NCBI GenBank assembly: GCA_028874215.1
Contig: JAPPLF010000072.1
Coordinates: 1-63,053, forward strand
Direction: 5' to 3'
Length of the DNA stretch: 63,053 nucleotides
From: Acidobacteriota bacterium
GTDB taxonomy: Bacteria; Acidobacteriota; UBA6911; RPQK01; JAJDTT01
Of this stretch, positions 1-61,281 are shown in pieces (the first letter of the stretch is position 1; the number at the start of each line of letters is the position of its first letter). The translations under genes and the position numbers were made by a program. The notes under the pieces are model-generated. The model saw only the letters and a program-made list of their open reading frames with translations. It ran no database searches and was not told the DNA's origin.

Positions 1-116
1 GGAGAAGTGAGCGACCCCCCTGTTTTCGTGCCTCGCACGTCACGCAAGCGCTGCCGGTGTTCCACTCCGTTGGACACCGGCGCGGCATGCGCGGGGGGGG
101 GGGGCGTTCACTTCTT
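1..116. repeat. Folded palindromic element upstream of the type I R-M operon
   Basis: Bases 3-20 (ending GAGCGACCCCCC) pair imperfectly with 98-116 (GGGGGG, then CG, then TTCACTTCTTC), giving an outer stem of about 18 bp. Inside are two hairpins: CGTGC/GCACG around a 3-nt loop at 27-39, and an 11/10-bp stem at 54-64/71-80 built on CCGGTGT and ACACCGG. The same plan, with different stem sequences, occurs at 33551-33650 and 55700-55799. The left edge may lie outside the window. The function is unknown; a MITE-like repeat or a structured RNA are both possible. Confidence 0.55.
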
Positions 117-348
117 CATTGATCCCTGCGGGAAGGCGCTAAAAACACCGATGGAGTGGGAACGTTCGGATTTGGAGAATACCACCACCTTATCGGAAAC
201 TTCAGATCGAGCCGTTCGCTTGGAAGTCCTTCAACGATGGGAGGCTTTCCGGTACTCTACAAGATAGTGCTGAGCGGTGCCTTGAATTACCCCGGCCGGA
301 GGTCATCGCTTAAAGTGCGAAAGAGGCGCTCAGTTAGAGGAGAAACCT

Positions 349-1956
349 TTGCGAAGAACCAGGACACACTCCAAGCCCAGGCGTCAAGGCGCAGCCAAGG
401 TGGGCTATGAGTCTCAGCTTTGGCAGATGGCTGACGCCCTGCGCGGCAGCATGGATGCAGCCGAGTACAAGCACGTCGTCCTGGGTCTGATCTTCCTCAA
501 GTATATCTCCGACGCCTTCCAGGAAGCCCACACTCGCCTCGAGGCTGAAGTCGGTACGGGGGCTGACCCAGAGGACCCGGACGAGTACCGGGCCCAGAAC
601 ATCTTCTGGGTGCCGGCCGAAGCGCGCTGGGTGAAGCTGAAGGCACAGGCCAAGCAACCCACCATCGGCCGGCTGGTGGACGATGCCATGGCCGGGATTG
701 AGCGCGACAATCCGGCGCTGAAGGGAGTGCTGCCCAAGGACTATGCTCGGCCAGCGCTGGACAAGACCCGCTTGGGCCTAATTATCGATCTGATCAGCAA
801 CATCCGGGTGGGCGATGAGGAGGCCCGATCCAAGGATGTGCTGGGGCGTGTCTACGAGTATTTTCTGTCGCAGTTCGCCAGCGCCGAAGGCAAGAAGGGG
901 GGCGAATTCTACACGCCGCGCTGCATCGTCAAGCTGCTGGTGGAGATGCTGGAGCCTTATCGGGGCCGGGTCTACGATCCCTGCTGCGGTTCCTCGGGGA
1001 TGTTCGTGCAGTCGGTGGAGTTCATCCGCGCCTACGCCACCGGCAATGGCAACGGCGGGCAACTTCCCAGGGGCGCCCGGGCCGACATCTCCATCTACGG
1101 CCAGGAATCTAACTACACCACTTGGCGACTCGCCAAGATGAATCTGGCTATCCGGGGCATCGAGGGTCAGATCGCCCATGGAGACACGTTTCATAACGAC
1201 CGCCACCCTGATCTGAAGGCCGACTATATCCTGGCCAATCCTCCGTTCAATGTTTCCGACTGGGGCGGTGCCCGCCTGCGAGAAGACCGGCGCTGGCAGT
1301 ACGGGGTGCCGCCGATCAGGAACGCCAACTTCGCCTGGGTGCAGCACATGGTCCACCATCTGGCCCCCGCCGGCGCGGCCGGGTTCGTGCTGGCCAACGG
1401 ATCGATGTCCTCCAACCAATCGGGCGAGGGAAAGATTCGCAAGAGCCTGATCGAAGCCGACCTGGTGGACTGCATGGTGGCCCTGCCGGGTCAGCTCTTC
1501 TACTCCACCCAGATCCCCGCTTGCCTCTGGTTTCTTGCCCGCGACCGGAAGGGCGGCAAGTTGCGCGACCGGCAGGGCGCGATCCTCTTCATCGACGCCC
1601 GCAAGCTGGGCCGCATGGTGGACCGAACCCATCGCGAGTTGACGGATGAAGACATTACTCGCATTTCCGAGACCTACCATGCCTGGCGCGACGGGGAGGA
1701 TATAGACGAATATGCCGACGTGCCGGGCTATTGCAAAAGCGCGACACTAGAGTTAGTACGCAAGCATGGCCACGTGCTCACTCCCGGCCGCTATGTGGGC
1801 GTGGAGCCGCAGCCGGAGGACCTGGAGCCGTTCGAGGAGAAGATGGGACGCCTCACCGCACAATGGCGGGAGCAGCAAGCCGAGGCAGCGAAACTGGACG
1901 CGAAGATTGAGGCCAACCTTGTGGCGCTAGGATTCGGCAATCGGGAGTCATCGTAA
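349..1956 (+). CDS. hsdM: Type I restriction-modification system methyltransferase subunit HsdM
   Basis: This is the N6-adenine methyltransferase subunit of a type I R-M complex; it joins HsdS for modification and HsdR for cleavage. The 535-residue length is normal. An N-terminal helical HsdM_N domain covers about residues 20-150. SAM-binding motif I is DPCCGSSGM at 210-218, and catalytic motif IV is NPPF at 297-300. The start is a TTG at 349, chosen because AGAGGAG at 336-342 is well spaced and no in-frame ATG lies near the conserved N-terminus. The stop codon overlaps the next gene's ATG, so the operon is tightly coupled. Family assignment is certain; the recognition site cannot be read from the sequence. 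Confidence 0.96.
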
Positions 1957-9784: not shown

Positions 9785-10561
9785 CTATTCAAGAGTGGGA
9801 CTGACAGTCCCCCCTCCCAGGGCTTCGAGGATCAGAACCTCCACCCTGTTCCAGACCTCGGGATCGCGGTCCATTTTGGCGTGGGCGATTCGGGCCAGGG
9901 TCTTGTACCAGGGGAGATCGGACACGTCGATGGGACTGTCCGCGTAGTCGAAGCGGAAATTGCCGATAATCTCGGTGCGGCTCGGATCCACAGCCCGGAT
10001 CGGCGCCTCCCCGCGGATCAGGCGTCCGTTGTCCTGGTAGATGTTGGCCGCGGTTCGGACGTTGGGAGGGATCATGCCGTCCCCGCGGCCGACGCTGTCC
10101 ACCTGGACGGTGAGCAGGATCGGCACATTCAGCGCGTCGAGTTGGCGGGCGAACTTGACGACGGCGGCTCCTCCGAAGCTCTGTCCGTAAACCACGATAC
10201 GCGCCTGAAGGCGCTCGGCGGACTGGAGCCGGCCGTCGCGGTTCGCATCCAATGCGGCGCGGACCAGGCGAAGGGCCAAATCCCGCTTCCGGTTCTCGAC
10301 GGTCTCGATGTGTACTCCCGCAAGGCGTCGGTCACGTAGCCGCTGGGCGATGCGGCCCACGCCGACCTCGGTGTTTTTCCAGGAGTCGCGGCCGCCCATG
10401 AAACCCAGAATCAGGGTGGCGCCCTGCTTGATGGGAGTGGTTGTGGCGAAGTGGCCATACTGTTGGCCGGAGCGCAGGATGCAGGATGCTGCCGTGGCGG
10501 CGGCCAGGAACAGGATCAGGAAGAGCCGGAAAAGCAAGGACCGGGTCATGCGTGACATCAC
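9785..10561 (-). CDS. Exported alpha/beta-hydrolase-fold protein, function unknown
   Basis: The protein has 258 residues, beginning with a hydrophobic export segment (LLFRLFLILFLAAATAAS, then Cys) that could be a lipoprotein signal. The mature part has a nucleophile-elbow-like motif YGQSFGG around residue 125, as in serine hydrolases. The segment DANRDGRLQSAERL resembles a calcium-binding loop. I could not place the other triad residues with confidence. Its ATG overlaps the stop of the CNNM/CBS gene in an ATGA arrangement, so the two are co-transcribed. The hydrolase fold is likely; the substrate is unknown. Confidence 0.6.
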   Translation of the reverse strand: MMSRMTRSLLFRLFLILFLAAATAASCILRSGQQYGHFATTTPIKQGATLILGFMGGRDSWKNTEVGVGRIAQRLRDRRLAGVHIETVENRKRDLALRLVRAALDANRDGRLQSAERLQARIVVYGQSFGGAAVVKFARQLDALNVPILLTVQVDSVGRGDGMIPPNVRTAANIYQDNGRLIRGEAPIRAVDPSRTEIIGNFRFDYADSPIDVSDLPWYKTLARIAHAKMDRDPEVWNRVEVLILEALGGGTVSPTLE

Positions 10562-32030: not shown

Positions 32031-32042
32031 GCACCCAGGGAG

Positions 32043-32184
32043 GGGGGACTTTCAGTCCCGACTGCTCCAAAGTCAATAACTACCGAAGGTTAACGTTTTC
32101 AATGTATTACCGGGTTCTTCGCCGAATCGGTAAAGTAGTTGACTCCCAACATTCGACGTCCTGAACAGGCAACAAACAGGCAGC
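32043..32184 (+). repeat. Left junction repeat of element copy 1 (shared with 53819-53962)
   Basis: About 140 bp here match 53819-53962 at roughly 92% by eye. The stretch opens with a hairpin (GGGAC/GTCCC around TTTCA at 32045-32059) and continues through GGTTAACGTTTTCAATG. It then contains an imperfect hairpin (ACCGGGTTC with GAATCGGT) and ends with AACAGGCAACAAACAGGCA at 32164-32182. The last 19 bp recur in the integrase 3' end at 41880-41898. It lies directly after the aldolase gene. I interpret the 19-mer as an attL-like site; the left part is probably the chromosomal target. Confidence 0.6.
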
Positions 32185-32300
32185 ATAATCAGCCCCCGAC
32201 AGCCGACACAACCTTCCTCGTTTCCGATCTGCCCTTCCGGACAGACTCGCATAATCCCTTTTTTCGGAGGCTATACCCCGCGTCTCTGCCGCCCTGGGTC

Positions 32301-32567: not shown

Positions 32568-33335
32568 GGTTCCTCCTATCCCTTTCGTCTGTCCCGTTTC
32601 GCGAAGCGGTTGAATCACCCAAGCTGAAGATTGTGTTCATCACTACCTTGGATGCGTGCCAAAGCGAGATATCTCAGCACTCTACTCGTTCCATGGGTGA
32701 GTCCACGTCAGCCGACCGTTGAAGTCTCCGGGTATTCCCACTACTGAGTACAACGGCTGAAATCGGGATCGGTCACACTCTTTTTGACGGCAGCGGCTTC
32801 GGGCATGATTTGAGGGGCAGACTAGAGCGGGCATCGAGGCGCTGGGAAATCAGCGTGACGGCACGGTTCAATGCCAGGTCTTCAGGAGTTCGATTTGGAG
32901 CTTCGATTTCCGAAGTCGAGCCTGCCGACGTGGTGACGCACCCGACAGGCCCTGAGCCAACTCGTCCTATGCCGGAGGAGGAGCCAGCCTGCAAGTCATT
33001 TTGCTTCGCCAGTCCCTGGGGTTCAACCCAGCAAAGGATCCCGTATCCGAGTTGGGATTTCCAGACGGTGGATTATCGCGTCCTACACTTCGCCCACTAG
33101 CACCTCGTTTGCGGCCGTCGGATGGCCCGTTTCCGATCGAGTGTTCTCCTTGCTCGGCCTATTCGATGAGCCTGACCCGCGACAAGCCCGCCTGTGCCTC
33201 AGACCTGTAGCCACGCTCACGGGGAAGGCAAGGGCTCTCGACTCATACCGTGGGGTGACGGCCGCACTGGAGAGGACGGTCGAGTTGCAACCAGCGGTGT
33301 AAGGTCGCTCCTTCCAGGTCGTGATTGACGGTGAA
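32568..33335. other. Intergenic left arm of element copy 1, no gene recognised
   Basis: Nothing in this 770-bp stretch supports a gene. The reading frames are short, lack ribosome sites and show no familiar motif. It has no counterpart at the matching place in copy 2, so the arm was acquired separately or has decayed. It may hold remnants of an older insertion. Confidence 0.4.
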
Positions 33336-33545
33336 CGCACTCGGCAGTCGCAAAGGCTGATGGAGGGCCGTTTCGTTTGTGCGAAAAGAGGGTCTCGCGC
33401 CCGATCCGGGATGTGAATGGGACAAGGGGGGTGGATTCACAAAAAGCGGTCCCGGTGATTCACAAATGCGCTGTCCCCGATCTGTTTTCCTTTCAGTCAG
33501 TTACGGACCCATGCCCCCAGGTCCGCGTGGCCGATCGGGGAGATC
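33336..33545 (+). repeat. Diverged repeat arm, related to 55486-55694
   Basis: This segment matches 55486-55694 with many substitutions and small gaps. Conserved pieces are GGCAGTCGCAAAGG, GTGGATTCACAAAAAGCGGT, CCCGGTGA with TTCACAAATGC, and CCTTTCAGTCAGTT. The near-duplicate words GGTGGATTCACAAA and GGTGATTCACAAA, 23 bp apart, resemble the end structure of a transposable element. The relation changes abruptly to complete identity at 33546. No coding potential is evident. Confidence 0.6.
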
Positions 33546-33550
33546 GGAGG

Positions 33551-33650
33551 TGGACGGGAGCGACCCCCCCTTTTTGCTGCCCGGTGCGGGCGCGGGGGTG
33601 TTGCGCAATTCACATTGCTCAACACCCCCTGGGGGGGTCGCTCCCGTCCA
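33551..33650. repeat. 100-nt folded palindrome upstream of the type IIG gene, copy 1
   Basis: A perfect 20-bp inverted repeat (TGGACGGGAGCGACCCCCCC at 33551-33570, complement at 33631-33650) encloses two hairpins. The first is GCCCG/CGGGC around GTG at 33579-33591. The second is GGGGGTGTTG with CAACACCCCC, continued by GCAAT/ATTGC around TCAC, at 33594-33629. The result is a three-way-junction shape. It lies 315 bp upstream of the restriction gene. It could be a MITE-like element, a processing site or a structured RNA; no flanking target duplication is visible. Confidence 0.8.
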
Positions 33651-33965
33651 AAATATCCCTGGCGGGAAGGCAATTCGTACACCCTATGAAGTGGCCGTAT
33701 ACGGTTCTCATTCTGGCTGATTCGTCGGCAATGATCTGGCGGACCAAATGCGAATCATTCCCTGGGCCTGGATCCCGTACTGGATCTGATCTCCTCTCAC
33801 GATTCGCCCGTGCATGCCGGGCACCAGGCTTGGTCCGACTTGGCTTCAGGCATTGCCCTCGCGCTTACCAAGTCGCTTTCGGTGTCCGTGTGGCGCAGGC
33901 CGCGCCTGTGCCGGTGAACTAGACCATGGATTATCGGCACAGGCATGGTGGCGTAATGTGCAAGA

Positions 33966-36900
33966 ATGAACGCGATGAGCATTGCCGGTCCATTCCAAGG
34001 AAGTCTCTTCGCCCATGATTTCCTTCAAGATTCAGTCATTCATCTAGATGACTGGCGGGACATCTCTCCCATTGAACTTGGCACCTTCGAAGCCTTTGTG
34101 CGGGAGGTTTTCGACGCCTTTCCAAGTGCCAGTTTACCCAATGAAAGCCAGACGGAAGACGATCTGATCTGGCCTATCCTGGTGCATCTCGGCTGGACCG
34201 CGAGCCTGCGGCAGCAAAACCTCTCCGCTCACGGTCGGGCGGACGTGCCCGACGGCCTGCTGTTCCCGGACGCTGAGGCGAAGGCCCGAGCCAACAGCTT
34301 TGCCGAAGAATGGAAGCGCTATGAGTTCGGAGTCGCAGTGGTCGAGTCGAAGCGCTGGCGGCGGCCGATTGATCGCCGTTCCGGGCGACGGGGGGAGGAA
34401 ACAGCGCCGTCGACCCAGATGCTCCGCTATCTTCGTCGTGTGGACGACTTGACCACCGGCAGGCTCCGCTGGGGCATTCTCACGAACGGTGCCCGGTGGC
34501 GGCTCTACTATCAGGGAGCCCGTTCCGTCTCGGAACAGTTTTTTGAGATGAATCTAGCGGCGCTTCTCGGACTCCCCGGCTACAGCGACGGGCCATTATC
34601 CATCACAAGAGATGATCGCCGCCACTGGCTGAAGGTGTTCATGCTCGTCTTCCGGCGCGAAGCCTTCCTTTCGGGAACGACCGACCCGCGCACGTTCCAT
34701 CAGCGAGCCATTGAGGAAGGCCGGTTTTACGAGGAACGCGTCGCCGCCAGCCTTTCTGCTCTAGTTTTCGACCAAGTCTTCCCCGAACTTGCCCGTGCCA
34801 TCGCAGCCAACACGCCCGAGTCATCATTGCCGGACGTGCGCGAGGCCGCCCTGGTTCTCCTCTATCGTCTCCTGTTCATCTTCTACGCCGAGGATCGTGA
34901 CCTTTTACCTGTACGCAATACGAGTTACGACGACTACGCGCTACGTGAGAAGGTGCGCGGTGATGTCGGGCGACGCAAAGATCGTGGTGATGTCTTCTCC
35001 GCACAAGCCGCCCGGTACTGGTCGGCCGTTGACGACCTTTGCCGGGCCATCGATCAAGGAGACGAGTCCATCGGCCTACCACCCTACAACGGCGGGCTTT
35101 TCGACCGGCCACGCGTGCCACTGCTCAACAACATTCGGCTCAGCGATGAAGTAATGGCCAATGTCATTGACGCGCTTTCATTTGAGCAAACCCCCAATGG
35201 CCGCCGCTACATCAATTATCGCGATCTCGGCGTTCAGCAGCTTGGCACGATCTACGAACGCTTGATCGAACAGGAGATCGTTCGCGCCGGCCGTGAGATT
35301 GTCGTTCGCCCGAACGTCTTTGCACGGAAGGGATCTGGCAGCTATTACACGCCCGACGATCTGGTCGGCCTGATCATCAAGGAAACGGTAGAACCACTAG
35401 TCCAGTCTCGGATGGACGCCTTCGCTGCTAAGATTTCCGATCTCTCCACGAGTCATCTGCCTGAAGACCGCAAGATAGGTCAATTGAAGCGCGTCGATCC
35501 GGCCGAGAAGCTGCTCGACCTGAAAATCTGCGATCCCGCCATGGGTTCAGGACATTTTCTGGTCAACTTGGTGGATCACCTCGCTGATCGAGTGATCTCT
35601 GCCATGGCCGAGGCGGAAGCCTTGATTGACGATTACATCTCGCCGTTGACCGAGAGGATCGACGTGATCCGAAACACGATCATAGGCAACGCCGAGGACC
35701 GAGGTTGGACCATCGATGCGCAACAACTCGACGACCGGCATATCGTCCGACGCATGGTTCTCAAGCGCTGCGTCTACGGCGTCGACAAGAACCCCATGGC
35801 CGTCGAACTGGCCAAGGTCGCGCTCTGGCTACACACGTTCACAGTCGGGGCACCGTTGAGTTTCTTGGATCATCACCTTCGTTGCGGCGATAGTTTGTTC
35901 GGTTCATGGGTCCGTGTCGGCATCGACAAGGCGAAGGAGCAAGGCGGCCCACTTTTTTTGAAAGGGCCACTACAACGGGCCACACGGGCTGCGGCTCCCA
36001 TGCAGATTATCGAGGGACTGACCGATGCCGAGATTGCGGAAGCCCACCGTTCTGCGGAAGTGTTCGCTGAAATCGAGGCGATGACGACGCCATTAGATGC
36101 GTTCCTGTCTCTGGTCCTTGCCTTCGATTGGCTTCATATCCGTAATCGCGACGACAAGAATGCGCTTTTTGCATACTTCACCGGAATCTTCGGGGACCCT
36201 GTGGACATTGCCTCGGGCACAGTCAAAGTCTCAACGGAGATAGAGGGCAGTGAGCGATTTTCCGAACTGCTTGACAAAGCAAAGCAGATTCACAGTGAAG
36301 AACACTTTTTCAATTGGCAGGTGACTTTCCCCGGTGTGTGGTCGGAGTGGGAAGCCGCCGAGCTGCATGGCGGATTCGACGCGGTGATCGGCAATCCACC
36401 CTGGGAGCGAATGAAGTTGCAGCAAGTTGAGTGGTTCGCTGCCCGCCACCCTGAGATCGCACACGCGCAGCGGGCCGCTGACCGAAAGCGCATGATCGCC
36501 GCGTTGCGCGATGCAGGGGACCCGCTTGCCTCAGAGTTTGAACGTGCGAGCGAGCGGGCCGAGTCCGCTGTCCGGATTGCGCGGACGAGCGGCGATTATC
36601 CGTATCTTTCTCGTGGCGATGTGAACACCTACTCTCTGTTCGTGGAGCGGGCGATGACGCTCGTCGCACCCGGTGGCATGGTGGGGCTACTGACCCCAAT
36701 CGGTATTGCGACGGACAAAACTTCGGCACCGTTCTTCGCTAAACGGATTCGCACTCGTTCCGTGAAGGTGTTCTTCGCTTTCGAGAACCGGCGTGGATGG
36801 CTTTTCCCAGATATTCATCATGAGGAACAGCCGTCGGTATTTGTGTTCGCAGAGTCCCAGCACCATTTCTCTGACTTTGATTTCTGTGTCCGCATCTCGT

Positions 36901-38045
36901 CGTGGGAACAATTCAACGACTCCAATCGACGTTTTCGCGTATCCGCGAATCTCTTGCGACGGGTCAATCCAAACACCGGAACCGTACCGATCTTCCGGTT
37001 CCGCCGTGACGCCGAACTGACCTCGGCGATCTACAGCCGCCTGCCGATCCTCGTTGATCGGTCAACGGGCGGGGAAGTTAAGGCATGGCCGGTGAAATAC
37101 AAGACGATGTTCCACATGACCAGCGACTCCGGCCTGTTCCGCACCCGCAAGGAGCTCGATGAGACGGAGGGTGCATGGCACCTGGGAGCTAACCGCTTCG
37201 CCAGTCCTTCCGGTGACTGGATGCCCCTCTACGAAGGCAAGATGATCCAGATTCACAACCACCGCTATGCGGGCGTTCGCATCAATCCCAATAGCATCAG
37301 CAGTCAAGGGGTGGCCGTAAGAGCAGGTCTGGCGGACCTCCAAGATCCCGCGTTCGTACCGCATCCGAGGTATTGGGTCAATGCGACCCATATTTCCGAA
37401 GTCGATCGTGGAAACTGGCGGATCGGTTTCAACCACATCTGCAATACGAACAACGCACGAAGCCTTATTGCGTGCGTTGTCCCAGACGCTGGATTTGGCA
37501 ATTCGTTACCGATCCTCTCTTTTGCGGATGGAATGACTGAATTTGATCTCGCTCTGTTGGTCGCGAACCTCTGTGCGCTCGTTTGCGATTATGTCGCTAG
37601 GCAGAAGATCCAATCACGGAACCTGAACAAATACATCCTGGAGCAACTCCCACTCGTCCCGCCTGACCGTTACGAGGCCGTCCGCTTCGGCCCCAAAACG
37701 GCCAGGGAGATTGTCCGAGCGGCCGTTCTTGAGTTGACCTACACTTCTCATGAAATGGCGCCCTTCGCGTGCGATATGGGTTACGTTGACGAGGCGGGAG
37801 TCGTAAAGCCACCCTTCATCTGGAACGAAGAGCGTCGTCTGATCCTGCGCTCCAAGCTCGACGCTGTGTTCTTCCATCTATACGGCGTCACGAACCGCGA
37901 CGATGTCCGCCATATCTACTCGACCTTTCCCGTCGTGAAACGTCGGGAAACAAGAGTCCACGGCTGCTACTACTCCCGTGATGTTTGCCTTGCCTGGATG
38001 AACGCGCTAAGCGCCGGCGCGCCAGATGCGGAGATCAATCTGTGA
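33966..38045 (+). CDS. Type IIG restriction-modification enzyme, Eco57I class (copy 1)
   Basis: This 1359-residue protein combines nuclease, methyltransferase and target recognition. An N-terminal PD-(D/E)xK-like region has D93 in ADVPDG and E127-S-K129 in VVESKRW. A helical linker spans about 200-440. The N6-adenine methyltransferase shows motif X-like YYTP at 460-463, motif I DPAMGSGHF at 523-531 and motif IV NPPW at 810-813. The C-terminal 400 residues are the likely target-recognition domain. No separate methyltransferase or specificity gene is needed. No strong ribosome site precedes the ATG at 33966; the ATG at 33975 is possible. PglX of BREX has a similar core, but no BREX partners are present. 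Confidence 0.9.
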   Translation: MNAMSIAGPFQGSLFAHDFLQDSVIHLDDWRDISPIELGTFEAFVREVFDAFPSASLPNESQTEDDLIWPILVHLGWTASLRQQNLSAHGRADVPDGLLFPDAEAKARANSFAEEWKRYEFGVAVVESKRWRRPIDRRSGRRGEETAPSTQMLRYLRRVDDLTTGRLRWGILTNGARWRLYYQGARSVSEQFFEMNLAALLGLPGYSDGPLSITRDDRRHWLKVFMLVFRREAFLSGTTDPRTFHQRAIEEGRFYEERVAASLSALVFDQVFPELARAIAANTPESSLPDVREAALVLLYRLLFIFYAEDRDLLPVRNTSYDDYALREKVRGDVGRRKDRGDVFSAQAARYWSAVDDLCRAIDQGDESIGLPPYNGGLFDRPRVPLLNNIRLSDEVMANVIDALSFEQTPNGRRYINYRDLGVQQLGTIYERLIEQEIVRAGREIVVRPNVFARKGSGSYYTPDDLVGLIIKETVEPLVQSRMDAFAAKISDLSTSHLPEDRKIGQLKRVDPAEKLLDLKICDPAMGSGHFLVNLVDHLADRVISAMAEAEALIDDYISPLTERIDVIRNTIIGNAEDRGWTIDAQQLDDRHIVRRMVLKRCVYGVDKNPMAVELAKVALWLHTFTVGAPLSFLDHHLRCGDSLFGSWVRVGIDKAKEQGGPLFLKGPLQRATRAAAPMQIIEGLTDAEIAEAHRSAEVFAEIEAMTTPLDAFLSLVLAFDWLHIRNRDDKNALFAYFTGIFGDPVDIASGTVKVSTEIEGSERFSELLDKAKQIHSEEHFFNWQVTFPGVWSEWEAAELHGGFDAVIGNPPWERMKLQQVEWFAARHPEIAHAQRAADRKRMIAALRDAGDPLASEFERASERAESAVRIARTSGDYPYLSRGDVNTYSLFVERAMTLVAPGGMVGLLTPIGIATDKTSAPFFAKRIRTRSVKVFFAFENRRGWLFPDIHHEEQPSVFVFAESQHHFSDFDFCVRISSWEQFNDSNRRFRVSANLLRRVNPNTGTVPIFRFRRDAELTSAIYSRLPILVDRSTGGEVKAWPVKYKTMFHMTSDSGLFRTRKELDETEGAWHLGANRFASPSGDWMPLYEGKMIQIHNHRYAGVRINPNSISSQGVAVRAGLADLQDPAFVPHPRYWVNATHISEVDRGNWRIGFNHICNTNNARSLIACVVPDAGFGNSLPILSFADGMTEFDLALLVANLCALVCDYVARQKIQSRNLNKYILEQLPLVPPDRYEAVRFGPKTAREIVRAAVLELTYTSHEMAPFACDMGYVDEAGVVKPPFIWNEERRLILRSKLDAVFFHLYGVTNRDDVRHIYSTFPVVKRRETRVHGCYYSRDVCLAWMNALSAGAPDAEINL

Positions 38046-38391
38046 AGGCGTATCTCTGTTCTGCGTGGGAGGTGTGTGGCTACTTCAGGGCGTAGGCTGA
38101 TTTGCTCAAGCGGTGCGGCGAGAAGCTCTCAATGTGCTCGATTCACAGCTTTGGGGGTTGTGATTGTTCCAACGCAACGACTCCTACAACGCCTCCATCT
38201 CAGCCAGCGCCACTCGCAGGCATGCACTGGTGCTGGGGACAAGGGAATCGGGACTGTCGGTACAGTCGATCTGAGCCCGAGCCAACATGACAGGACGGGC
38301 TAGTAGTATGAGTTGCTCAATGAGTTCAGTTTGACTTGGCTGAATGGGCCAGGGCGAAAGAGGGCGGGACATACTTAAATGGATTGTTCAG
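38046..38391. other. Intergenic stretch between type IIG and DUF5131 genes
   Basis: About 345 bp without a supported gene. Short frames exist on both strands, among them a 62-residue one on the minus strand at 38184-38372, but none has a ribosome site or a motif I know. The same sequence is repeated at 60195-60540. It probably contains the promoter of the DUF5131-TcmP pair; I could not pick out clear -35 and -10 boxes. Confidence 0.4.
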
Positions 38392-39117
38392 ATGGCGAGC
38401 AAATCCGCAATCGAATGGACTGATGCAACTTGGAACCCGGTAACCGGCTGCACTAAAGTCTCTCGCGGTTGCGACAATTGTTATGCTGAGCGCCTTTCCG
38501 AGCGGTTCCGCGGCACACCCGGGCATCCATTTGAGAGCGGGTTTGATCTTACGCTTCGCCCAGAGCGCCTTTCCCAACCGCTTTCGTGGAAACGACCGAG
38601 AAGGATCTTCGTCAATTCGATGAGCGACCTGTTTCACAACAGAATTCCAACAAAGTTCATCGATCGTGTTTTTGAGACGATGGAGTCTGCTGACCAGCAT
38701 GTGTATCAGGTGCTCACGAAGCGAAGCTCACTGATGAAGAATTACCTGCTACAAAGGTACGATGGCAGCGCGACGCCGCGCCATATCTGGTGCGGAGTGT
38801 CCGTTGAAGATCACAAGGCAACCGCCAGGATTCAACACCTTAAGACGGCTCCGATCACCATTCGTTTTCTTTCCATCGAACCGCTTCTCGGCCCTGTGGG
38901 AGAGATTGATCTGCAAGGGATTTCCTGGGTCATCGTCGGCGGGGAGAGCGGCCCGAAGGCACGCCCCATGGAACTACGCTGGGTCCTTGATATCAGGGAT
39001 ATGTGCAAACAAAGTGGAGTTGACTTTTTCTTCAAACAATGGGGGGGGCGTACGCCGAAGGCGGGCGGACGCAAGCTTGAGGGCATTGAGCATAACGCCA
39101 TGCCTGGTTACCCTTGA
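38392..39117 (+). CDS. Phage Gp37/Gp68-family three-Cys protein (DUF5131), copy 1
   Basis: This 241-residue protein starts at ATG 38392 (MASKSAIEWTDATWNPVTGC). Three cysteines, C20-x6-C27-x2-C30 (GC...RGCDNCYA), form the family's three-Cys motif, which looks like a radical-SAM-type cluster site. Other blocks are VNSMSDLFH, VLTKRS, WCGVSVED and IVGGESGPKARPM. The family is common in phages and mobile elements. Its biochemical role is unknown to me. Its regular partner, TcmP, follows 15 bp later, so the two form one unit. The upstream in-frame ATG at 38344 does not fit the family start. Confidence 0.9.
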   Translation: MASKSAIEWTDATWNPVTGCTKVSRGCDNCYAERLSERFRGTPGHPFESGFDLTLRPERLSQPLSWKRPRRIFVNSMSDLFHNRIPTKFIDRVFETMESADQHVYQVLTKRSSLMKNYLLQRYDGSATPRHIWCGVSVEDHKATARIQHLKTAPITIRFLSIEPLLGPVGEIDLQGISWVIVGGESGPKARPMELRWVLDIRDMCKQSGVDFFFKQWGGRTPKAGGRKLEGIEHNAMPGYP

Positions 39118-39132
39118 CGGAGACGCGAGACC

Positions 39133-40383
39133 GTGAATTTCAGTTGGCATCCTGACGAATCCCCACCTCTGATCGAGGCACACAGCAAGGCAAAGCTCGA
39201 TGTTTTGCGCAGCTACCTGCACGCCTATCTCGATAGGCTGAACATCAATCCTCATCGCGAAGAATTCAAACTCGATCTTGTTGATGGTTTTGCCGGAGGG
39301 GGTACGTTTCTGGACGGCAAAGAGGTAGTTTCGGGATCCCCATTGATCATGCTTGAGGAATCCGAAAAAGCAAAAGGGAGACTGAATCGACGCCGTACTA
39401 ATCCTCTGCGTTTCGACTTCGGGTACTACTTTGTCGATAAGGAGGCCGCCCATATAGGTCATCTCAAGAAAGTTCTGGATGAACGCGGTTACCAAGTTGA
39501 TGGGGAACGGATTGTCGTTATTAACAAACGATTCGAGGAAGTGCTTGACGATATCATCGCGAAAATTCGCCGCCGACAACCTCGCGCCGGACGCTCAATT
39601 TTTCTTCTTGACCAGACCGGATTCGCACAGGTCGCGCTGGAACTCGTAGCTCGGATTTTTCGTGAACTGCCGGCTGCGGAGGTCATACTTACGTTTGCCA
39701 CAGATGCGCTCGTCAACCATCTTGCGGAAACACGGTCGCAGATCAAGGCAGTCGCTCCGATCGATTTGTCGGAAGCACAAATACGCGAGTTGATCGAGTA
39801 CCGGGATGGAGATGGCGGTCGAGCCCTTATTCAGAGAACGTTGCGTAATCATATTCGCACCGGGACGAGAGCGACCTATGATACTCCATTCTTCATCCGA
39901 CCTCGTCGGTCACGCCGTGCCTTGTGGTTCCTCCATCTGTCGAGACATCCTACTGCGCGCGATGTCATGATTCAGCGGCATTGGGAGATTTCAAATACCT
40001 TCGAACACTACGGTCCCGGCGATTTCGGGATGCTGGGATGGGAAGGATTGCACTCCAAGACACTGCCCCTATTCCATTTTACAGGGCATGACGCCGAGCA
40101 GATGCGGTCGGAACTTTTGAATTCCCTGCCGGAGAAACTGTTCGGTTTGGTATCCGAAACCCCGATCACCGTTGACACGATGCGGCATATGCTTGCAAAC
40201 AAGACAGCCGCTCGATTCTCGGATCTTGACGAGGCGGTCCTCCAACTTTTCCGGGAAAGAGAACTTAGAATTTTGGATCCCGATGGCAAAGTGCGCTCCC
40301 ATACTCTGAGACGTCTTCGGCCTTCCGATCAGATTGCACTTCCCAATACGCTGTTGCTTCCCGGAATTTCCCGCCGCCGTTAA
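39133..40383 (+). CDS. tcmP: Three-Cys-motif partner protein TcmP, copy 1
   Basis: TcmP proteins are named for occurring next to three-Cys (Gp37/Gp68) proteins, as here, 15 bp apart. The 416-residue protein starts at a GTG (39133) after GGAGACG-like bases. The N-terminus has a nucleotide- or SAM-binding-like motif LDLVDGFAGGGTF at 48-60. Further blocks are YFVDKEAAHIGHL, FLLDQTGF and LTFATDALVNHL. The order of these strands resembles an amino-group DNA methyltransferase, but no NPPY/DPPY motif is visible. Function is unproven; a role with DUF5131 in nucleic-acid modification is a reasonable inference. Confidence 0.88.
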   Translation: MNFSWHPDESPPLIEAHSKAKLDVLRSYLHAYLDRLNINPHREEFKLDLVDGFAGGGTFLDGKEVVSGSPLIMLEESEKAKGRLNRRRTNPLRFDFGYYFVDKEAAHIGHLKKVLDERGYQVDGERIVVINKRFEEVLDDIIAKIRRRQPRAGRSIFLLDQTGFAQVALELVARIFRELPAAEVILTFATDALVNHLAETRSQIKAVAPIDLSEAQIRELIEYRDGDGGRALIQRTLRNHIRTGTRATYDTPFFIRPRRSRRALWFLHLSRHPTARDVMIQRHWEISNTFEHYGPGDFGMLGWEGLHSKTLPLFHFTGHDAEQMRSELLNSLPEKLFGLVSETPITVDTMRHMLANKTAARFSDLDEAVLQLFRERELRILDPDGKVRSHTLRRLRPSDQIALPNTLLLPGISRRR

Positions 40384-40491
40384 GGTTTTGCAGACAGGCA
40401 ATTGGAGTTTCCAATAAGCATGAAGGGATTCCCCGAGGAAATCTAAGGCGCCGCTCCGCGGTCTCAGAGACCTACCTCCATTTATTTGTGA

Positions 40492-40722
40492 TCACAGTTC
40501 CCCTGTCATCCACTTGACTTTCCCGATTACCTCGTCCTCGCCCCATGTCTCGGGCTCCCAAGCCGGGTGATCGCTGACCAGCAGCCAGTTGCCTGAATCG
40601 TCGATCACGGATCGCTTGACGACCAAGCCATCGCTCTTGCGAACCACATAGAAATGTCCTCGCAGCCGTCGCCTCCGGTTGTGGTCGACCGGGGTCACGC
40701 AGCCTTCCGGCAAGGCCATCGG
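40492..40722 (-). pseudogene. C-terminal remnant of an S24-family (LexA/phage-repressor-like) peptidase, copy 1
   Basis: The last 75 residues of the frame match the end of S24 peptidases: a VDHNRRRRLRGHFYVVRKSDGL stretch (VDHNRRR, then GHFYVV), then GLVVKRSV with the catalytic Lys context, WLLVSDHPAWEP and EVIGKVKWM. The helix-turn-helix and the catalytic GDSM segment are missing, and the sequence upstream is unrelated. It lies tail-to-tail with TcmP and diverges from the integrase. It looks like the broken repressor of an ancestral prophage-like element. Confidence 0.65.
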
Positions 40723-40837
40723 CACATTTCGCAAACTGGCCGATCTGATCATCATTACGGCCAGAGTCGATTCTCTGGAACCGTGGTACGATTCTTCCCA
40801 CGGCGAAGAACCCGGATCCAGAAAGGAGGAGATGCAT

Positions 40838-41923
40838 ATGGGCATCTATAAGGTGAAGGATCGCCGGGGGAGACGACGTTTCGTCGTCAGCAAGTACTGG
40901 CCGCATGGATCCGGTCGGCTCCGAATGTACGCCCCCAACTACCGGAGCGCACAGGCGCTTCAAACACGAATCGAGTCCAGCATCCTGGACGGCACATGGA
41001 AGCAGCTCAAGGAGGAGCTCGCCGGCGGGAACCGTACCGTCTGGACGGTCCGGAGCTTCTACGAGCGATTTTTCGAGGAGTATTGCAAACCTCGCATGCG
41101 CTCCCGGCGTCGCTATGCGCTCTCGTTCAAGAGCCTCAACGCCATGCTGGGGAACATTCCCCTGAAGGAGTTCCGCCGCAAGGACCTGTACCGCTACGTC
41201 GCCAAGAGGAAGAAGCAAGTGCAGCCGGCCACGGTGAACCGCGACATTGCCGCCATCAGCAAGCTGTTTTCCTACGCGCTGGAGTGCGGAGAGGTGGACA
41301 CGCACCCGCTGGTGAGATTCCCCAAACTCAAAGAACCCAGGAAGGTCTTCCGGCCCTTGACGGTTCAACAGTTCCGCGACCTGGTCGAGGCGATGGACAA
41401 CCCTTACCTGCAAGCCATGGTTGCGGTGATCGGCGAGACGGGGATTCGGAAAGGCGAAGCGTTGTCGCTCACCTGGAAACGGGTGGACCTATCCCGGAGG
41501 CTGCTATGGGTGGAATTCACCAAGGACGACGAGCCGAGGGAGATTCCGCTCTCGAAGTACGCTGCTGGATACCTGGCCAGGCTTCCACGTTACCTGAACA
41601 CCTCATACGTCTTTGTCAACAGCAGAACAGGGACAAGATGGGTGAATCCGGACAAGCCGCTACATCGAGCCGCCGAGAGGGTGGGTTTGAAGGTCGGTTT
41701 TCACGATCTGAGGCGATTCCGGTGCAGCCATTGGCTGATGCAGGGGGTGGACGTGAGGACGGTGCAGAAGTTGATGGGGCACTCGGCCATCAGCACGACG
41801 ATGCGCTACGCAGGGTACGTCAGTTCTCATGCGCTTGCCAGCATACGGGAGGCACAGGCTAACGAAGACTCACAATCGCAACAGGCAACAAACAGGCAAC
41901 GGGTAATAAACAAGGTGGAATGA
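40838..41923 (+). CDS. int: Tyrosine recombinase / phage-type integrase, copy 1
   Basis: This 361-residue enzyme starts at ATG 40838, with AAAGGAGG at 40822-40829 spaced 8 bp; the ATG at 40832 is too close. An N-terminal arm-binding and core-binding region (residues 1-165) precedes the catalytic domain. R204 (GETGIRKGEAL), H289-D-L-R292, H315 (LMGHSAIS) and nucleophile Y324 (TTMRYAGY) are all present, so it should be active. The final residues QQATNRQ (348-354) are encoded by the 19-bp sequence that recurs at the element's left end. Its 3' end therefore overlaps the proposed attachment site. Confidence 0.95.
   Translation: MGIYKVKDRRGRRRFVVSKYWPHGSGRLRMYAPNYRSAQALQTRIESSILDGTWKQLKEELAGGNRTVWTVRSFYERFFEEYCKPRMRSRRRYALSFKSLNAMLGNIPLKEFRRKDLYRYVAKRKKQVQPATVNRDIAAISKLFSYALECGEVDTHPLVRFPKLKEPRKVFRPLTVQQFRDLVEAMDNPYLQAMVAVIGETGIRKGEALSLTWKRVDLSRRLLWVEFTKDDEPREIPLSKYAAGYLARLPRYLNTSYVFVNSRTGTRWVNPDKPLHRAAERVGLKVGFHDLRRFRCSHWLMQGVDVRTVQKLMGHSAISTTMRYAGYVSSHALASIREAQANEDSQSQQATNRQRVINKVE
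41880..41898 (+). other. Putative attR core of element copy 1
   Basis: AACAGGCAACAAACAGGCA equals the sequences at 32164-32182 and 53942-53960. It contains two copies of AACAGGCA, a layout suited to recombinase binding. It lies inside the integrase 3' end and encodes QQATNRQ. At the left sites the same frame reads EQATNRQ. I infer a crossover site; the exact strand-exchange point is unknown. Confidence 0.5.
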
Positions 41924-41970: not shown

Positions 41971-42007
41971 CGTAGCTCATCTGGACAGAGCAACGGACTT
42001 TCAGTCC
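41971..42007 (+). other. tRNA-Arg(TCT)-like 5' half merged with a TTTC hairpin
   Basis: TAGCTCATCTGGACAGAGCA then ACGGACTT reads like the D-arm and 5' anticodon stem of a bacterial tRNA-Arg(TCT). After that the tRNA pattern stops: no matching 3' anticodon stem, T-arm or acceptor follows. The same bases form a hairpin, GGAC/GTCC around TTTCA, at 41995-42007, of the family seen elsewhere here. It sits 48 bp beyond the integrase stop. It is either a broken tRNA at an insertion point or chance resemblance. Confidence 0.3.
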
Positions 42008-42025: not shown

Positions 42026-42147
42026 CGCCGAGCGCGTCGGATCAGCGGATTGGATCGGTCTGCGGCCTTGAACTTCGCGGGCCAGGGAACTCGCCCCGTC
42101 GTCCATCCGTCGGAAGTTCTGCCCGAGCAGGTCTGTGGGCCGGCCCG
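42026..42147 (+). repeat. Diverged inverted repeat, partner at 55186-55310
   Basis: About 120 bp here match the reverse complement of 55186-55310 at roughly 80% by eye. Shared blocks include GAGCGCGTCGGATC, GGCCAGGGA then CTCGCCCCGTC, CATCCGTCGG, TTCTGCCCGA and CAGGTCTGTG. Neither copy is within a gene. The matching segments look like the end of an old mobile element. The remainder of 41924-42315 holds no gene I can support. Confidence 0.65.
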
Positions 42148-42315
42148 CGGCCTCGATTTGGTCTTGGACCGGGTTGACGGGCGGTCCGGAGTTGATTCAT
42201 GCCCACGAGAGACACAGAGGAATTTCGATGTCTTCCCATTCCGGAGGACGCCCGTGAACTCAGCTGAGGGGCGTAGGTGGGAGTTTCGTCGGCTCCGGCC
42301 GTGCCCGACACAGCG

Positions 42316-53818: not shown

Positions 53819-53962
53819 GTGGGGGTTTTCCTATCCCGACTGCTCCATAGTCAAAAACTACCAAAGGTTAACGTTTTCAATGGATTACCGGGTTCTTCGC
53901 CGAATCGGTAAAGTGGTTGACTCCCAGCGTTTGACATCCTGAACAGGCAACAAACAGGCAGC
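53819..53962 (+). repeat. Left junction repeat of element copy 2 (shared with 32043-32184)
   Basis: This is the counterpart of 32043-32184, with about ten differences in the last 124 bp. Its hairpin (GGGGT/ATCCC around TTTCCT at 53822-53837) has a different stem from the partner's but the same loop type. It ends in the 19-bp sequence AACAGGCAACAAACAGGCA at 53942-53960. It starts 3 bp after the dehydrogenase stop. I read the 19-mer as the attL-like end of the second element. Confidence 0.6.
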
Positions 53963-54160
53963 CGAATCGGTTCCTGAACGCCGACAATCTCTTCTCTTTC
54001 CCCTTGTTCCTCAGGTTCGAAACACATTATGGTTGCGCTGTGTTGATCTTTGGACAGCAACGCACGGCAACGCTTTAACCCTGACAAATTTGTTGCCCAT
54101 TGACAACGGTTTCCCCGCCTTCACTCACCTTCATCACAAGGTGATCCTTGGAAACAATAT

Positions 54161-54721: not shown

Positions 54722-55485
54722 GATGCCCACCTCCCAGTAGTGATCAGACTCGCATCATGAAATGTGAATTTTTCTCCGCAATCAGCTCACTGGGTAGGTT
54801 CAGATGGAGTGAACTTAGGAAAGGTCTGAACAACCCCATGGTCCTCTAGCGGAGAGCCTCACCTCTTTCCTCGCCTCGGCGGGAGATGACTCCGGCTGAG
54901 TGACCTGGCAAGAATGGTGCCGTCTGGCCGTCGGCTGCCCGTGAGAAGCGACTTCCCTCGGCCCGGATGAGCGTCAAGGTCACGGTCTCGCGGTACGCAA
55001 CGGCGTGGAACATCACGCCCGCCACAGAGCCATCGGCAACAATCAGGCCAGAGGCGATCAGGCTCATGTCTCATGATTGCCGTTGTGGCCGTAATCTCCG
55101 GGAGCGGTTCCCGGTTTCCCAGGACGGCGTCTGGCCTTCACTAGAGTCGGATTCGTCCGTTCCTTTGCTCAGCTCGATCTCTATAGCGGACCGGCTCACA
55201 GACCTGTTCGGGCAGAAGCGCCGACGGATGGGTGACGGGGCGAGGTCCCTGGCCGGCGAAGGTCAAGACCTGGAGACCGATCCATCCATTGATCCGACGC
55301 GCTCGGTGCGGGGAATCTCGGGAGCCTGGTCACCCGAACCGATCCCGGCGTCCATGAGCTTCGAGCGGACCTGCGTCGGACGGCGAGACTATCGGGTCGG
55401 GCTTGATCTCCTCCCCTCAAATAGGTCCACCCCGAAAGTGAGTAATGCCGTCTAATAGACGGCGGGAGGGTCGCCGAGACAGTTC
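54722..55485. other. Intergenic arm of element copy 2, including an inverted repeat
   Basis: No gene is well supported. A 73-residue minus-strand frame at 54846-55067 (MSLIASGLIVADGSVAGVMF...) lacks a good ribosome site and a known motif. The part at 55186-55310 is the reverse complement relative of 42026-42147 (about 80% by eye). The rest is unlike the left arm of copy 1. Confidence 0.4.
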
Positions 55486-55694
55486 CGCACTTGGCAGTCG
55501 CAAAGGGTTACGGCGACTCGCTTCAGCTGTGCGTAAAGGGGGTCTGGTGGCCGATCCGGAATGTGAATGGGACAAAGGGGGTGGATTCACAAAAAGCGGT
55601 CCCGGTGACTCACAAATGCACTCTCCCCGATCTTTTTTCCTTTCAGTCAGTTGCGGCCCCATTTCCGGCCACCGGGTGGCCGCACGGGGAAAAT
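55486..55694 (+). repeat. Diverged repeat arm, related to 33336-33545
   Basis: This is the partner of 33336-33545. The blocks GGCAGTCGCAAAGG, GTGGATTCACAAAAAGCGGT, TCACAAATGC and CCTTTCAGTCAGTT are shared, the rest has many substitutions and small gaps. The sharp transition to complete identity at 55695 means the last exchange or duplication stopped here. Confidence 0.6.
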
Positions 55695-55699
55695 GGAGG

Positions 55700-55799
55700 T
55701 GGACGGGAGCGACCCCCCCTTTTTGCTGCCCGGTGCGGGCGCGGGGGTGTTGCGCAATTCACATTGCTCAACACCCCCTGGGGGGGTCGCTCCCGTCCA
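55700..55799. repeat. 100-nt folded palindrome upstream of the type IIG gene, copy 2
   Basis: Same sequence as 33551-33650: a perfect 20-bp outer inverted repeat with two inner hairpins. It lies 315 bp upstream of the second type IIG gene, just inside the left edge of the identical block. Confidence 0.8.
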
Positions 55800-56114
55800 A
55801 AATATCCCTGGCGGGAAGGCAATTCGTACACCCTATGAAGTGGCCGTATACGGTTCTCATTCTGGCTGATTCGTCGGCAATGATCTGGCGGACCAAATGC
55901 GAATCATTCCCTGGGCCTGGATCCCGTACTGGATCTGATCTCCTCTCACGATTCGCCCGTGCATGCCGGGCACCAGGCTTGGTCCGACTTGGCTTCAGGC
56001 ATTGCCCTCGCGCTTACCAAGTCGCTTTCGGTGTCCGTGTGGCGCAGGCCGCGCCTGTGCCGGTGAACTAGACCATGGATTATCGGCACAGGCATGGTGG
56101 CGTAATGTGCAAGA

Positions 56115-59100
56115 ATGAACGCGATGAGCATTGCCGGTCCATTCCAAGGAAGTCTCTTCGCCCATGATTTCCTTCAAGATTCAGTCATTCATCTAGATGA
56201 CTGGCGGGACATCTCTCCCATTGAACTTGGCACCTTCGAAGCCTTTGTGCGGGAGGTTTTCGACGCCTTTCCAAGTGCCAGTTTACCCAATGAAAGCCAG
56301 ACGGAAGACGATCTGATCTGGCCTATCCTGGTGCATCTCGGCTGGACCGCGAGCCTGCGGCAGCAAAACCTCTCCGCTCACGGTCGGGCGGACGTGCCCG
56401 ACGGCCTGCTGTTCCCGGACGCTGAGGCGAAGGCCCGAGCCAACAGCTTTGCCGAAGAATGGAAGCGCTATGAGTTCGGAGTCGCAGTGGTCGAGTCGAA
56501 GCGCTGGCGGCGGCCGATTGATCGCCGTTCCGGGCGACGGGGGGAGGAAACAGCGCCGTCGACCCAGATGCTCCGCTATCTTCGTCGTGTGGACGACTTG
56601 ACCACCGGCAGGCTCCGCTGGGGCATTCTCACGAACGGTGCCCGGTGGCGGCTCTACTATCAGGGAGCCCGTTCCGTCTCGGAACAGTTTTTTGAGATGA
56701 ATCTAGCGGCGCTTCTCGGACTCCCCGGCTACAGCGACGGGCCATTATCCATCACAAGAGATGATCGCCGCCACTGGCTGAAGGTGTTCATGCTCGTCTT
56801 CCGGCGCGAAGCCTTCCTTTCGGGAACGACCGACCCGCGCACGTTCCATCAGCGAGCCATTGAGGAAGGCCGGTTTTACGAGGAACGCGTCGCCGCCAGC
56901 CTTTCTGCTCTAGTTTTCGACCAAGTCTTCCCCGAACTTGCCCGTGCCATCGCAGCCAACACGCCCGAGTCATCATTGCCGGACGTGCGCGAGGCCGCCC
57001 TGGTTCTCCTCTATCGTCTCCTGTTCATCTTCTACGCCGAGGATCGTGACCTTTTACCTGTACGCAATACGAGTTACGACGACTACGCGCTACGTGAGAA
57101 GGTGCGCGGTGATGTCGGGCGACGCAAAGATCGTGGTGATGTCTTCTCCGCACAAGCCGCCCGGTACTGGTCGGCCGTTGACGACCTTTGCCGGGCCATC
57201 GATCAAGGAGACGAGTCCATCGGCCTACCACCCTACAACGGCGGGCTTTTCGACCGGCCACGCGTGCCACTGCTCAACAACATTCGGCTCAGCGATGAAG
57301 TAATGGCCAATGTCATTGACGCGCTTTCATTTGAGCAAACCCCCAATGGCCGCCGCTACATCAATTATCGCGATCTCGGCGTTCAGCAGCTTGGCACGAT
57401 CTACGAACGCTTGATCGAACAGGAGATCGTTCGCGCCGGCCGTGAGATTGTCGTTCGCCCGAACGTCTTTGCACGGAAGGGATCTGGCAGCTATTACACG
57501 CCCGACGATCTGGTCGGCCTGATCATCAAGGAAACGGTAGAACCACTAGTCCAGTCTCGGATGGACGCCTTCGCTGCTAAGATTTCCGATCTCTCCACGA
57601 GTCATCTGCCTGAAGACCGCAAGATAGGTCAATTGAAGCGCGTCGATCCGGCCGAGAAGCTGCTCGACCTGAAAATCTGCGATCCCGCCATGGGTTCAGG
57701 ACATTTTCTGGTCAACTTGGTGGATCACCTCGCTGATCGAGTGATCTCTGCCATGGCCGAGGCGGAAGCCTTGATTGACGATTACATCTCGCCGTTGACC
57801 GAGAGGATCGACGTGATCCGAAACACGATCATAGGCAACGCCGAGGACCGAGGTTGGACCATCGATGCGCAACAACTCGACGACCGGCATATCGTCCGAC
57901 GCATGGTTCTCAAGCGCTGCGTCTACGGCGTCGACAAGAACCCCATGGCCGTCGAACTGGCCAAGGTCGCGCTCTGGCTACACACGTTCACAGTCGGGGC
58001 ACCGTTGAGTTTCTTGGATCATCACCTTCGTTGCGGCGATAGTTTGTTCGGTTCATGGGTCCGTGTCGGCATCGACAAGGCGAAGGAGCAAGGCGGCCCA
58101 CTTTTTTTGAAAGGGCCACTACAACGGGCCACACGGGCTGCGGCTCCCATGCAGATTATCGAGGGACTGACCGATGCCGAGATTGCGGAAGCCCACCGTT
58201 CTGCGGAAGTGTTCGCTGAAATCGAGGCGATGACGACGCCATTAGATGCGTTCCTGTCTCTGGTCCTTGCCTTCGATTGGCTTCATATCCGTAATCGCGA
58301 CGACAAGAATGCGCTTTTTGCATACTTCACCGGAATCTTCGGGGACCCTGTGGACATTGCCTCGGGCACAGTCAAAGTCTCAACGGAGATAGAGGGCAGT
58401 GAGCGATTTTCCGAACTGCTTGACAAAGCAAAGCAGATTCACAGTGAAGAACACTTTTTCAATTGGCAGGTGACTTTCCCCGGTGTGTGGTCGGAGTGGG
58501 AAGCCGCCGAGCTGCATGGCGGATTCGACGCGGTGATCGGCAATCCACCCTGGGAGCGAATGAAGTTGCAGCAAGTTGAGTGGTTCGCTGCCCGCCACCC
58601 TGAGATCGCACACGCGCAGCGGGCCGCTGACCGAAAGCGCATGATCGCCGCGTTGCGCGATGCAGGGGACCCGCTTGCCTCAGAGTTTGAACGTGCGAGC
58701 GAGCGGGCCGAGTCCGCTGTCCGGATTGCGCGGACGAGCGGCGATTATCCGTATCTTTCTCGTGGCGATGTGAACACCTACTCTCTGTTCGTGGAGCGGG
58801 CGATGACGCTCGTCGCACCCGGTGGCATGGTGGGGCTACTGACCCCAATCGGTATTGCGACGGACAAAACTTCGGCACCGTTCTTCGCTAAACGGATTCG
58901 CACTCGTTCCGTGAAGGTGTTCTTCGCTTTCGAGAACCGGCGTGGATGGCTTTTCCCAGATATTCATCATGAGGAACAGCCGTCGGTATTTGTGTTCGCA
59001 GAGTCCCAGCACCATTTCTCTGACTTTGATTTCTGTGTCCGCATCTCGTCGTGGGAACAATTCAACGACTCCAATCGACGTTTTCGCGTATCCGCGAATC

Positions 59101-60194: not shown

Positions 60195-60540
60195 AGGCGT
60201 ATCTCTGTTCTGCGTGGGAGGTGTGTGGCTACTTCAGGGCGTAGGCTGATTTGCTCAAGCGGTGCGGCGAGAAGCTCTCAATGTGCTCGATTCACAGCTT
60301 TGGGGGTTGTGATTGTTCCAACGCAACGACTCCTACAACGCCTCCATCTCAGCCAGCGCCACTCGCAGGCATGCACTGGTGCTGGGGACAAGGGAATCGG
60401 GACTGTCGGTACAGTCGATCTGAGCCCGAGCCAACATGACAGGACGGGCTAGTAGTATGAGTTGCTCAATGAGTTCAGTTTGACTTGGCTGAATGGGCCA
60501 GGGCGAAAGAGGGCGGGACATACTTAAATGGATTGTTCAG
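60195..60540. other. Intergenic stretch between type IIG and DUF5131 genes, copy 2
   Basis: Identical to 38046-38391. No supported gene. Likely holds the promoter of the DUF5131-TcmP pair, but I see no clear promoter boxes. Confidence 0.4.
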
Positions 60541-61266: not shown

Positions 61267-61281
61267 CGGAGACGCGAGACC

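Follow-up and report, generated by a model that had tools for sequence, protein, structure and literature searches.

What is the folded palindrome that stands upstream of the restriction genes in the window, the 63,053-nucleotide stretch of an Acidobacteriota bacterium that was analysed here (assembly GCA_028874215.1, contig JAPPLF010000072.1), and what would it do there? The original prediction had placed such palindromes at 1-116, 33551-33650 and 55700-55799, and all three were found. The proposed plan, an outer stem around two hairpins, was reproduced in each of them with DNA folding energies, and z-scores against dinucleotide shuffles were -5.4, -11.6 and -11.1, respectively. The branched plan as scored in this test also arose in 32% of the shuffles; it is the energy z-scores that carry weight. 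The distance to the restriction genes, predicted to be 230-320 bp, was 264-296 bp, and a search of the whole window confirmed that it holds no further GAGCGACCC..GGGTCGCTC pair.

The first copy (1-136, forward strand; R1 match C72:3-136, E = 1.1e-9) has lost its left part at the contig start. It keeps the hairpin core and the right end ATCCCTGCGGGAAGGC, with a degenerate right arm (GGGGGGGGGGGGCGTTCAC), and has intact siblings at C80:1318 and C86:43231. Its right-hand cargo is hsdM, the methyltransferase gene of a type I restriction-modification (R-M) system (400-1956, forward strand; PF02384 at C72:829-1818, E = 2.4e-105). The core of the second copy, comprising outer stem, two hairpins and right end, occupies 33548-33671 (forward strand; R1 E = 3.5e-33), and the cargo to its right is a type IIG restriction-methyltransferase gene (33966-38045, forward strand; PF07669 Eco57I, E = 4e-18). 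The tyrosine integrase of this island (40679-41923, forward strand; PF00589) is followed by a decayed tRNA-Arg piece (41971-42007, forward strand), an attachment-site remnant similar to the intact tRNA-Arg(TCT) that follows a related integrase at C96. The third copy (55697-55820, forward strand; R1 E = 3.5e-33) and its type IIG gene (56115-60194, forward strand) duplicate the second, as 33336-40904 and 55486-63053 are 99.5% identical across 7,571 bp. Each of the three restriction loci does have its palindrome, but the second and third copies lie in this one 7.57-kb duplication, which includes the type IIG island, so that the window copies represent two independent events, and the independence of three loci was dropped on finding it. 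The second copy of the duplication reaches the contig end, where a real second island and an assembly effect are both possible. A 121-bp inverted repeat (86%) has one arm after the integrase and tRNA remnant (42028-42148) and the other about 400 bp before the third copy (55186-55306). A separate repeat family with a GGGACTnnCAGTCCC palindrome is present at gene 3' ends (9797-9822, 32034-32059, 32056-32225 and 53834-54001), its direct copies being 87% alike.

Unit boundaries were determined from 33 copies in this genome, anchored on the outer-stem arms. The palindrome is real, but the conserved unit is longer than had been proposed, about 270 bp, with about 150 bp added on the left and about 20 bp on the right. 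It starts near (T)CCGGGAGTGT and continues with the short repeats M1 (inverted), M2 and M3 and a GC-rich stretch; then come the outer stem GGACGGGAGCGACCCCCC, hairpin 1, hairpin 2 with a fourth copy of the short motif (M4) in its loop, and the right arm; the unit closes with ATCC(C)TGnCGGGAAGGC, its right end. Most copies have the extra C in the right end, ATCC(C)TG, and in the 57 aligned copies the inverted repeats are followed by a conserved core, ATCC(C)TGnCGG. The unit corresponds to 33398-33671 for the second window copy and to C96:10705-10985 for C96. In the second window copy, sequence and motif concordance placed M1 (GTGAAT) at 33413-33418 on the reverse strand, and M2, M3 and M4 (all ATTCAC) at 33435-33440, 33458-33463 and 33608-33613 on the forward strand. 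On the same strand are the left arm (33551-33570) and the right arm (33631-33650), which are complementary at 20 of 20 positions, a perfect pairing shared by the outer stem of the third copy, and the conserved right end TATCCCTGGCGGGAAGGC (33654-33671), a putative nick region delimited by alignments and flank clusters.

Copies in this genome fall into four subtypes by their motif: A (CTTACA), B (ATTCAC), C (GTGCAC) and D (GTGTTCC). The first window copy belongs to subtype D and the second to subtype B. The type of the left repeats agreed with that of the loop in 23 of 26 typable copies, the other three being chimaeras. Among 55 copies from all genomes, the loop motif was commoner in its own left half than in those of others (2.7 versus 2.2 sites; permutation p = 5e-5, an optimistic value given the relatedness, and hence non-independence, of copies). 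C-G, A-U, U-A and G-C all occur as the outermost stem pair, with both sides changed in 12 sequences, and pairing has therefore been kept while the sequence changed. Selection on structure, which the original prediction had suggested, agrees with this covariation of outer-stem positions and with hairpins that change in sequence and keep their plan. The RNAalifold consensus recovered the outer stem only; because the hairpins are too variable in length and sequence for it, their conservation rests on single-sequence folds.

A covariance model built from 57 copies, for which the palindrome also yields weaker reverse-strand matches, found about 34 full copies in the 5.7-Mb genome in addition to pieces at contig ends, giving a family of about 40 copies. 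In this draft assembly contig breaks are frequent at the element, and gene calls came from a simple codon-usage caller. Strong matches were obtained in 3 of 30 relatives, all of the same genus, along with one marginal match in the same order, and the element was present in 5 genomes among 149 drawn from the phylum. Its distribution in the phylum is patchy. An exact-pattern scan of GTDB genomes retrieved 30 loci in metagenome-assembled genomes (MAGs) labelled as Gemmatimonadetes/Gemmatimonadota, Acidobacteria, Aminicenantes, Nitrospirales and Gammaproteobacteria; these labels are as deposited, and single contigs may be mis-binned. At these loci the plan is kept and the hairpins have diverged. 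The pattern scan of viral contigs gave no match to the element, nor did blastn against phage and plasmid records, which included 72,556 known plasmids. At C24 (L021:12150-17310), four elements are found within 5 kb, with single genes between them (a YfiO-like lipoprotein, an HU protein and an unknown protein of 256 aa), an arrangement that resembles a cassette array between two integrases.

We then looked at the genes to the left of the element. At C96, genes for TrbC/VirB2, VirB4, TrbI, TrbL and VirB8 are followed by a gene for a 314-aa member of a family of proteins of about 311 aa, then by the element, and then by genes for VirD4, VirB11 and ArdC. A 71-kb contig of G129, a genome from another family of the same phylum, has the order VirB8, a 327-aa homologue (46%), element, VirD4 and VirB11. 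The element thus sits, as a non-coding site, at the same spot in two T4SS operons from different families, and the T4SS context rests on these two cases. At 12 loci in MAGs of Gemmatimonadota, 161-176 bp separate the element from the end of a preceding same-strand gene for the ~311-aa protein, or for its 3' part; these homologues share 45-97% identity with one another, and at L051 this gene is preceded by that for VirB8. Isolated copies in the present genome have decayed 3' pieces of the ~311-aa gene 160-190 bp before them, some with stop codons. They include the window copy at 33548: the decayed 3' end of the gene, which would have encoded a candidate relaxase or oriT-binding protein, lies at 33213-33374 (forward strand; profile A3 E = 1.5e-4; tblastn 3e-7), contains one internal TAA, and precedes the core by 189 bp in the tblastn analysis. 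At C86 (L038:9667-11619), a ~311-aa homologue and an ArdC anti-restriction protein are fused in one open frame, and C82:32293-33189 is a long open frame like this fusion. In the second common arrangement on the left, a P4-like integrase gene ends about 250 bp from the element.

Three further observations concern this neighbourhood. At C95 (L101:3298-4248), a complete ~311-aa homologue, 42% identical to that of C96, lies among housekeeping-like genes with no element downstream. A second uncharacterised gene, for a protein of about 290 aa, follows an ardC-like gene in two conjugative elements (L045:15636-16517 and L107:3245-4120), and is another candidate for a relaxase or regulator. The conjugative element at C96 also carries an apparent CRISPR-Cas region (C96:18363-28000; L045/L082), with a Cas2-like gene of 99 aa (L082:7087-7383) and repeat-like open frames, as judged by eye.

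The right side of the element carries the cargo. Of ten distinct restriction loci, our own count from profile matches, six lie within 5 kb of an element against 0.42 expected (p about 1e-6). The ten include C35, which has a weak element only, and the uncertain C80:232947, both scored as not near. The predicted link to R-M genes is thus borne out as an enrichment, which does not show that the element acts on these genes. It is not exclusive, as the majority of copies have non-defence genes as neighbours. The covariance-model search of the genome and relatives, proposed with the original prediction as a check, accordingly gave a divided answer: R-M genes are enriched near the copies, but most of the ~34 full copies are not beside such genes. 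In addition to hsdM and the type IIG gene of the window, R-M and defence cargo to the right comprises a SacI endonuclease with a C5 methyltransferase (C24), N4/N6 and C5 methyltransferases (C55), MmeI (C86), HsdR (C108), an AAA/NsnB-like protein (C94) and a type II methyltransferase-like protein (C30). Elsewhere, such cargo includes an OLD-like protein accompanied by HsdM (L075), a TIR-like protein (L053) and HEC-07 (L068). Blast clustering sorted the flanks into four or more left types and four or more right types, which are joined in many combinations; whole-region MAFFT alignment was uninformative past the element. Right flanks diverge at or just after ATCC(C)TGnCGG. On the right side of elements, 88-aa genes are repeatedly found at a distance of a few hundred bp; the one at L021:14896-15159 encodes HU (PF00216), and those at L028:7398-7661 and L027:10237-10500 belong to the same family by blast clustering or length only.

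Sequence searches with the ~311-aa family gave no match to Pfam (E 0.1) or NCBIfam profiles, those of relaxases included, and no sequence match in the PDB; tblastn with the 314-aa protein against the PLSDB plasmids found none either. The full structural model (pLDDT 66, modest confidence) has an N-terminal winged helix, matched at a Z of about 6.5, and a C-terminal alpha/beta domain. All structural matches were below Z 8 and thus below the trustworthy range, including SdaI for the full model (Z 7.0) and, for the C-terminal part alone (pLDDT 78), the closest match, nickase N.BspD6I (Z 5.9, 117 residues, 3.7 A). R.BspD6I2, FokI and SduA were lower C-terminal matches, mixed with unrelated folds, and Foldseek alone gave no match below E 0.001. 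SdaI, N.BspD6I, R.BspD6I2, FokI and SduA are PD-(D/E)XK nucleases, a fold that the C-terminal model weakly resembles.

This likeness can be set beside the MOBC modules, such as those with TraX of pAD1 and MobC of CloDF13. MOBC relaxases belong to the PD-(D/E)XK superfamily, and pAD1 TraX combines an N-terminal winged helix with an active site of restriction-endonuclease type and binds repeats far from the nick (PMC12857230). By analogy with this architecture, the modelled fold suggests that the ~311-aa protein may work like a MOBC relaxase. It differs, however, in that its similarity is one of weak fold only; since the Replic_Relax/MOBC profile (PF13814) did not match the ~311-aa genes, nor did any other relaxase profile, the protein cannot be classed as a MOBC relaxase. 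An accessory role beside a different relaxase is just as possible for it. The G129 contig has a separate PF03432 relaxase frame 33 kb from the element, behind a MobC-like frame of its own, and no PF03432 relaxase was found at C96.

In view of these observations, the element is likely to represent an undescribed family of oriT, the origin of conjugative transfer at which a plasmid-like element is cut for passage to another cell, and to have been hijacked by integrase and restriction islands that a conjugative element would mobilise. Its native place would be between the ~311-aa gene and virD4, the coupling-protein gene, in transfer operons carried by integrative conjugative elements or by plasmids. 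Binding of the short repeats and of the branched hairpin would fall to the ~311-aa protein; the nick, at the conserved right end ATCC(C)TGnCGG, would be made either by this protein or by a relaxase that partners it. Restriction genes or ardC, on the strand to the right of the element, would then be the first to enter the recipient. Many islands appear to have kept or captured the cis-site alone, often next to what is left of the 3' end of the ~311-aa gene, and to combine it with an integrase and with cargo such as R-M genes; a resident conjugative element would mobilise them in trans, and recombination between copies would swap flanks at the element and build arrays. The right end ATCC(C)TG presumably resembles the RP4/VirD2 nick consensus, a similarity that we regard as a lead only. 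A literature search with the right-end string did not return that consensus. Several observations speak against an oriT: the copies within 5 kb at C24 exceed what one oriT would need, the ~311-aa homologue at C95 has no element, the ~311-aa family matches no relaxase profile and has structural matches below Z 8 only, most copies have an extra C relative to the presumed nick consensus, and G129 carries its separate PF03432 relaxase frame.

Whether the element instead is the attachment site of P4-like integrases, beside which islands pile up as in integron arrays, can be judged from the integrases themselves. Five P4-like integrase genes (C24a, C93, C38, C10 and C103) end about 250 bp before a same-orientation element or at a contig break, an arrangement also seen in other MAGs, and both the shuffled flanks and the same-strand arrays would fit such a site. 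For members of the same clade at C80, C74 and C44, however, the neighbouring element is of subtype D, has the opposite orientation and turns its right side to them, so that either orientation occurs within one clade, and position and orientation relative to the integrase are not fixed. Element-bearing islands use at least three integrase types, and those that can be placed lie at tRNA-Arg or tRNA-Leu. The clade of C72, C30, C88, C68 and C96 ends at tRNA-Arg or lookalike pieces, most clearly in C72 and C30; the C96 integrase ends 40 bp before the intact tRNA-Arg(TCT), and that of C86 ends near tRNA-Leu. The element is therefore not a common attachment site of the islands, and we judge this explanation quite improbable. 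The idea of an integron-like array of cassettes, in which the integrase would act on the element, was dropped in view of the tRNA genes after other integrases and the variable orientation to the P4-like clade. One cis-site is common to islands with different integrases and to T4SS operons, within which the element also lies, and a transfer origin thus fits better than an attachment site.

Other functions of a folded element fit parts of the evidence. In a single-strand DNA promoter of the Frpo/ssi type, a long hairpin in the entering strand lets the RNA polymerase of the recipient transcribe leading-region genes early. Such promoters are known from leading regions (PMC11541004), and the strong hairpins, the presence of several copies on one strand ahead of the genes of a single island (C24, C48), and the ardC and R-M genes to the right are as expected of a leading-region hairpin upstream of defence-related genes. 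We nevertheless hold this explanation improbable, since it accounts neither for the conserved right end nor for the short repeats beyond the hairpin, and the element occupies one fixed place in two T4SS operons, between the ~311-aa gene and virD4, as expected of an oriT. A MITE was among the guesses of the original prediction. Perfect 20-bp inverted repeats and about 34 dispersed intergenic copies would suit such a non-autonomous transposon of MITE or REP type, spreading by itself; it is disfavoured, and very unlikely in our view, as conserved sequence runs about 150 bp past one inverted repeat and 20 bp past the other, and the left neighbours are recurrent genes or remnants at a fixed distance. 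The least credible explanation is the guess of a regulatory RNA, or a terminator, acting in cis on the downstream gene: despite a strong, covarying fold 160-590 bp before genes, an Rfam scan of four loci gave no relevant match that passed the gathering score, the genes downstream are of unrelated kinds and lie on either strand, and conservation tracks mobile modules and not one gene type. The third guess, a recombination target that gathers defence cargo, came closest, although a conjugative oriT on defence islands is better supported.

An origin of transfer with this plan has a precedent in the oriT of pWBG749 from Staphylococcus plasmids, in which accessory repeats lie upstream, branched hairpins follow and a conserved core comes last, with subtypes defined by the recognition repeat (PMC4652767). 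Copies of that oriT occur on non-conjugative plasmids without mobilisation genes, some beside a pseudogene of smpO, which encodes the specificity protein, and recombination takes place at the core (PMC4652767). The present element shares the plan, the subtypes by repeat, the copies without mobilisation genes, the pseudogene beside copies and, apparently, the recombination at the core. It differs in that sequence and hosts are unrelated, and in that an unassigned ~311-aa family is found in place of the MOBP relaxase and RHH-like accessory protein (PMC4652767). At the level of whole islands, integrative mobilizable elements with an origin and no relaxase are a recognised class, iOriT (PMC11389934), and the islands described here likewise combine an integrase, a presumed cis-acting origin and cargo without transfer genes. 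What sets them apart is an undescribed origin family with about 34 copies in one genome, often next to R-M systems.

A bolder proposal, which we put forward tentatively and regard as possible but rather doubtful, is that the ~311-aa protein is the founder of a new nuclease-fold relaxase family, and that R-M and other defence islands use its oriT as a common boarding pass, of which they have made many copies in each genome and which they exchange across phyla. Through the ArdC fusion at C86, and the one presumed at C82, protection would then reach the recipient along with the incoming DNA. Were the ~311-aa protein a relaxase, it would represent a new enzyme family for conjugation. Both this protein and the element are absent from the 72,556 known plasmids, and present collections therefore cover little of this system. 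Restriction and other defence islands often show no transfer genes that would account for their movement. The element as an oriT would explain how restriction systems and other genes ride between unrelated bacteria. A short, searchable cis-site that ties such islands to conjugation would make their movement testable in phyla with few cultured members, and would allow mobile islands to be found by sequence.
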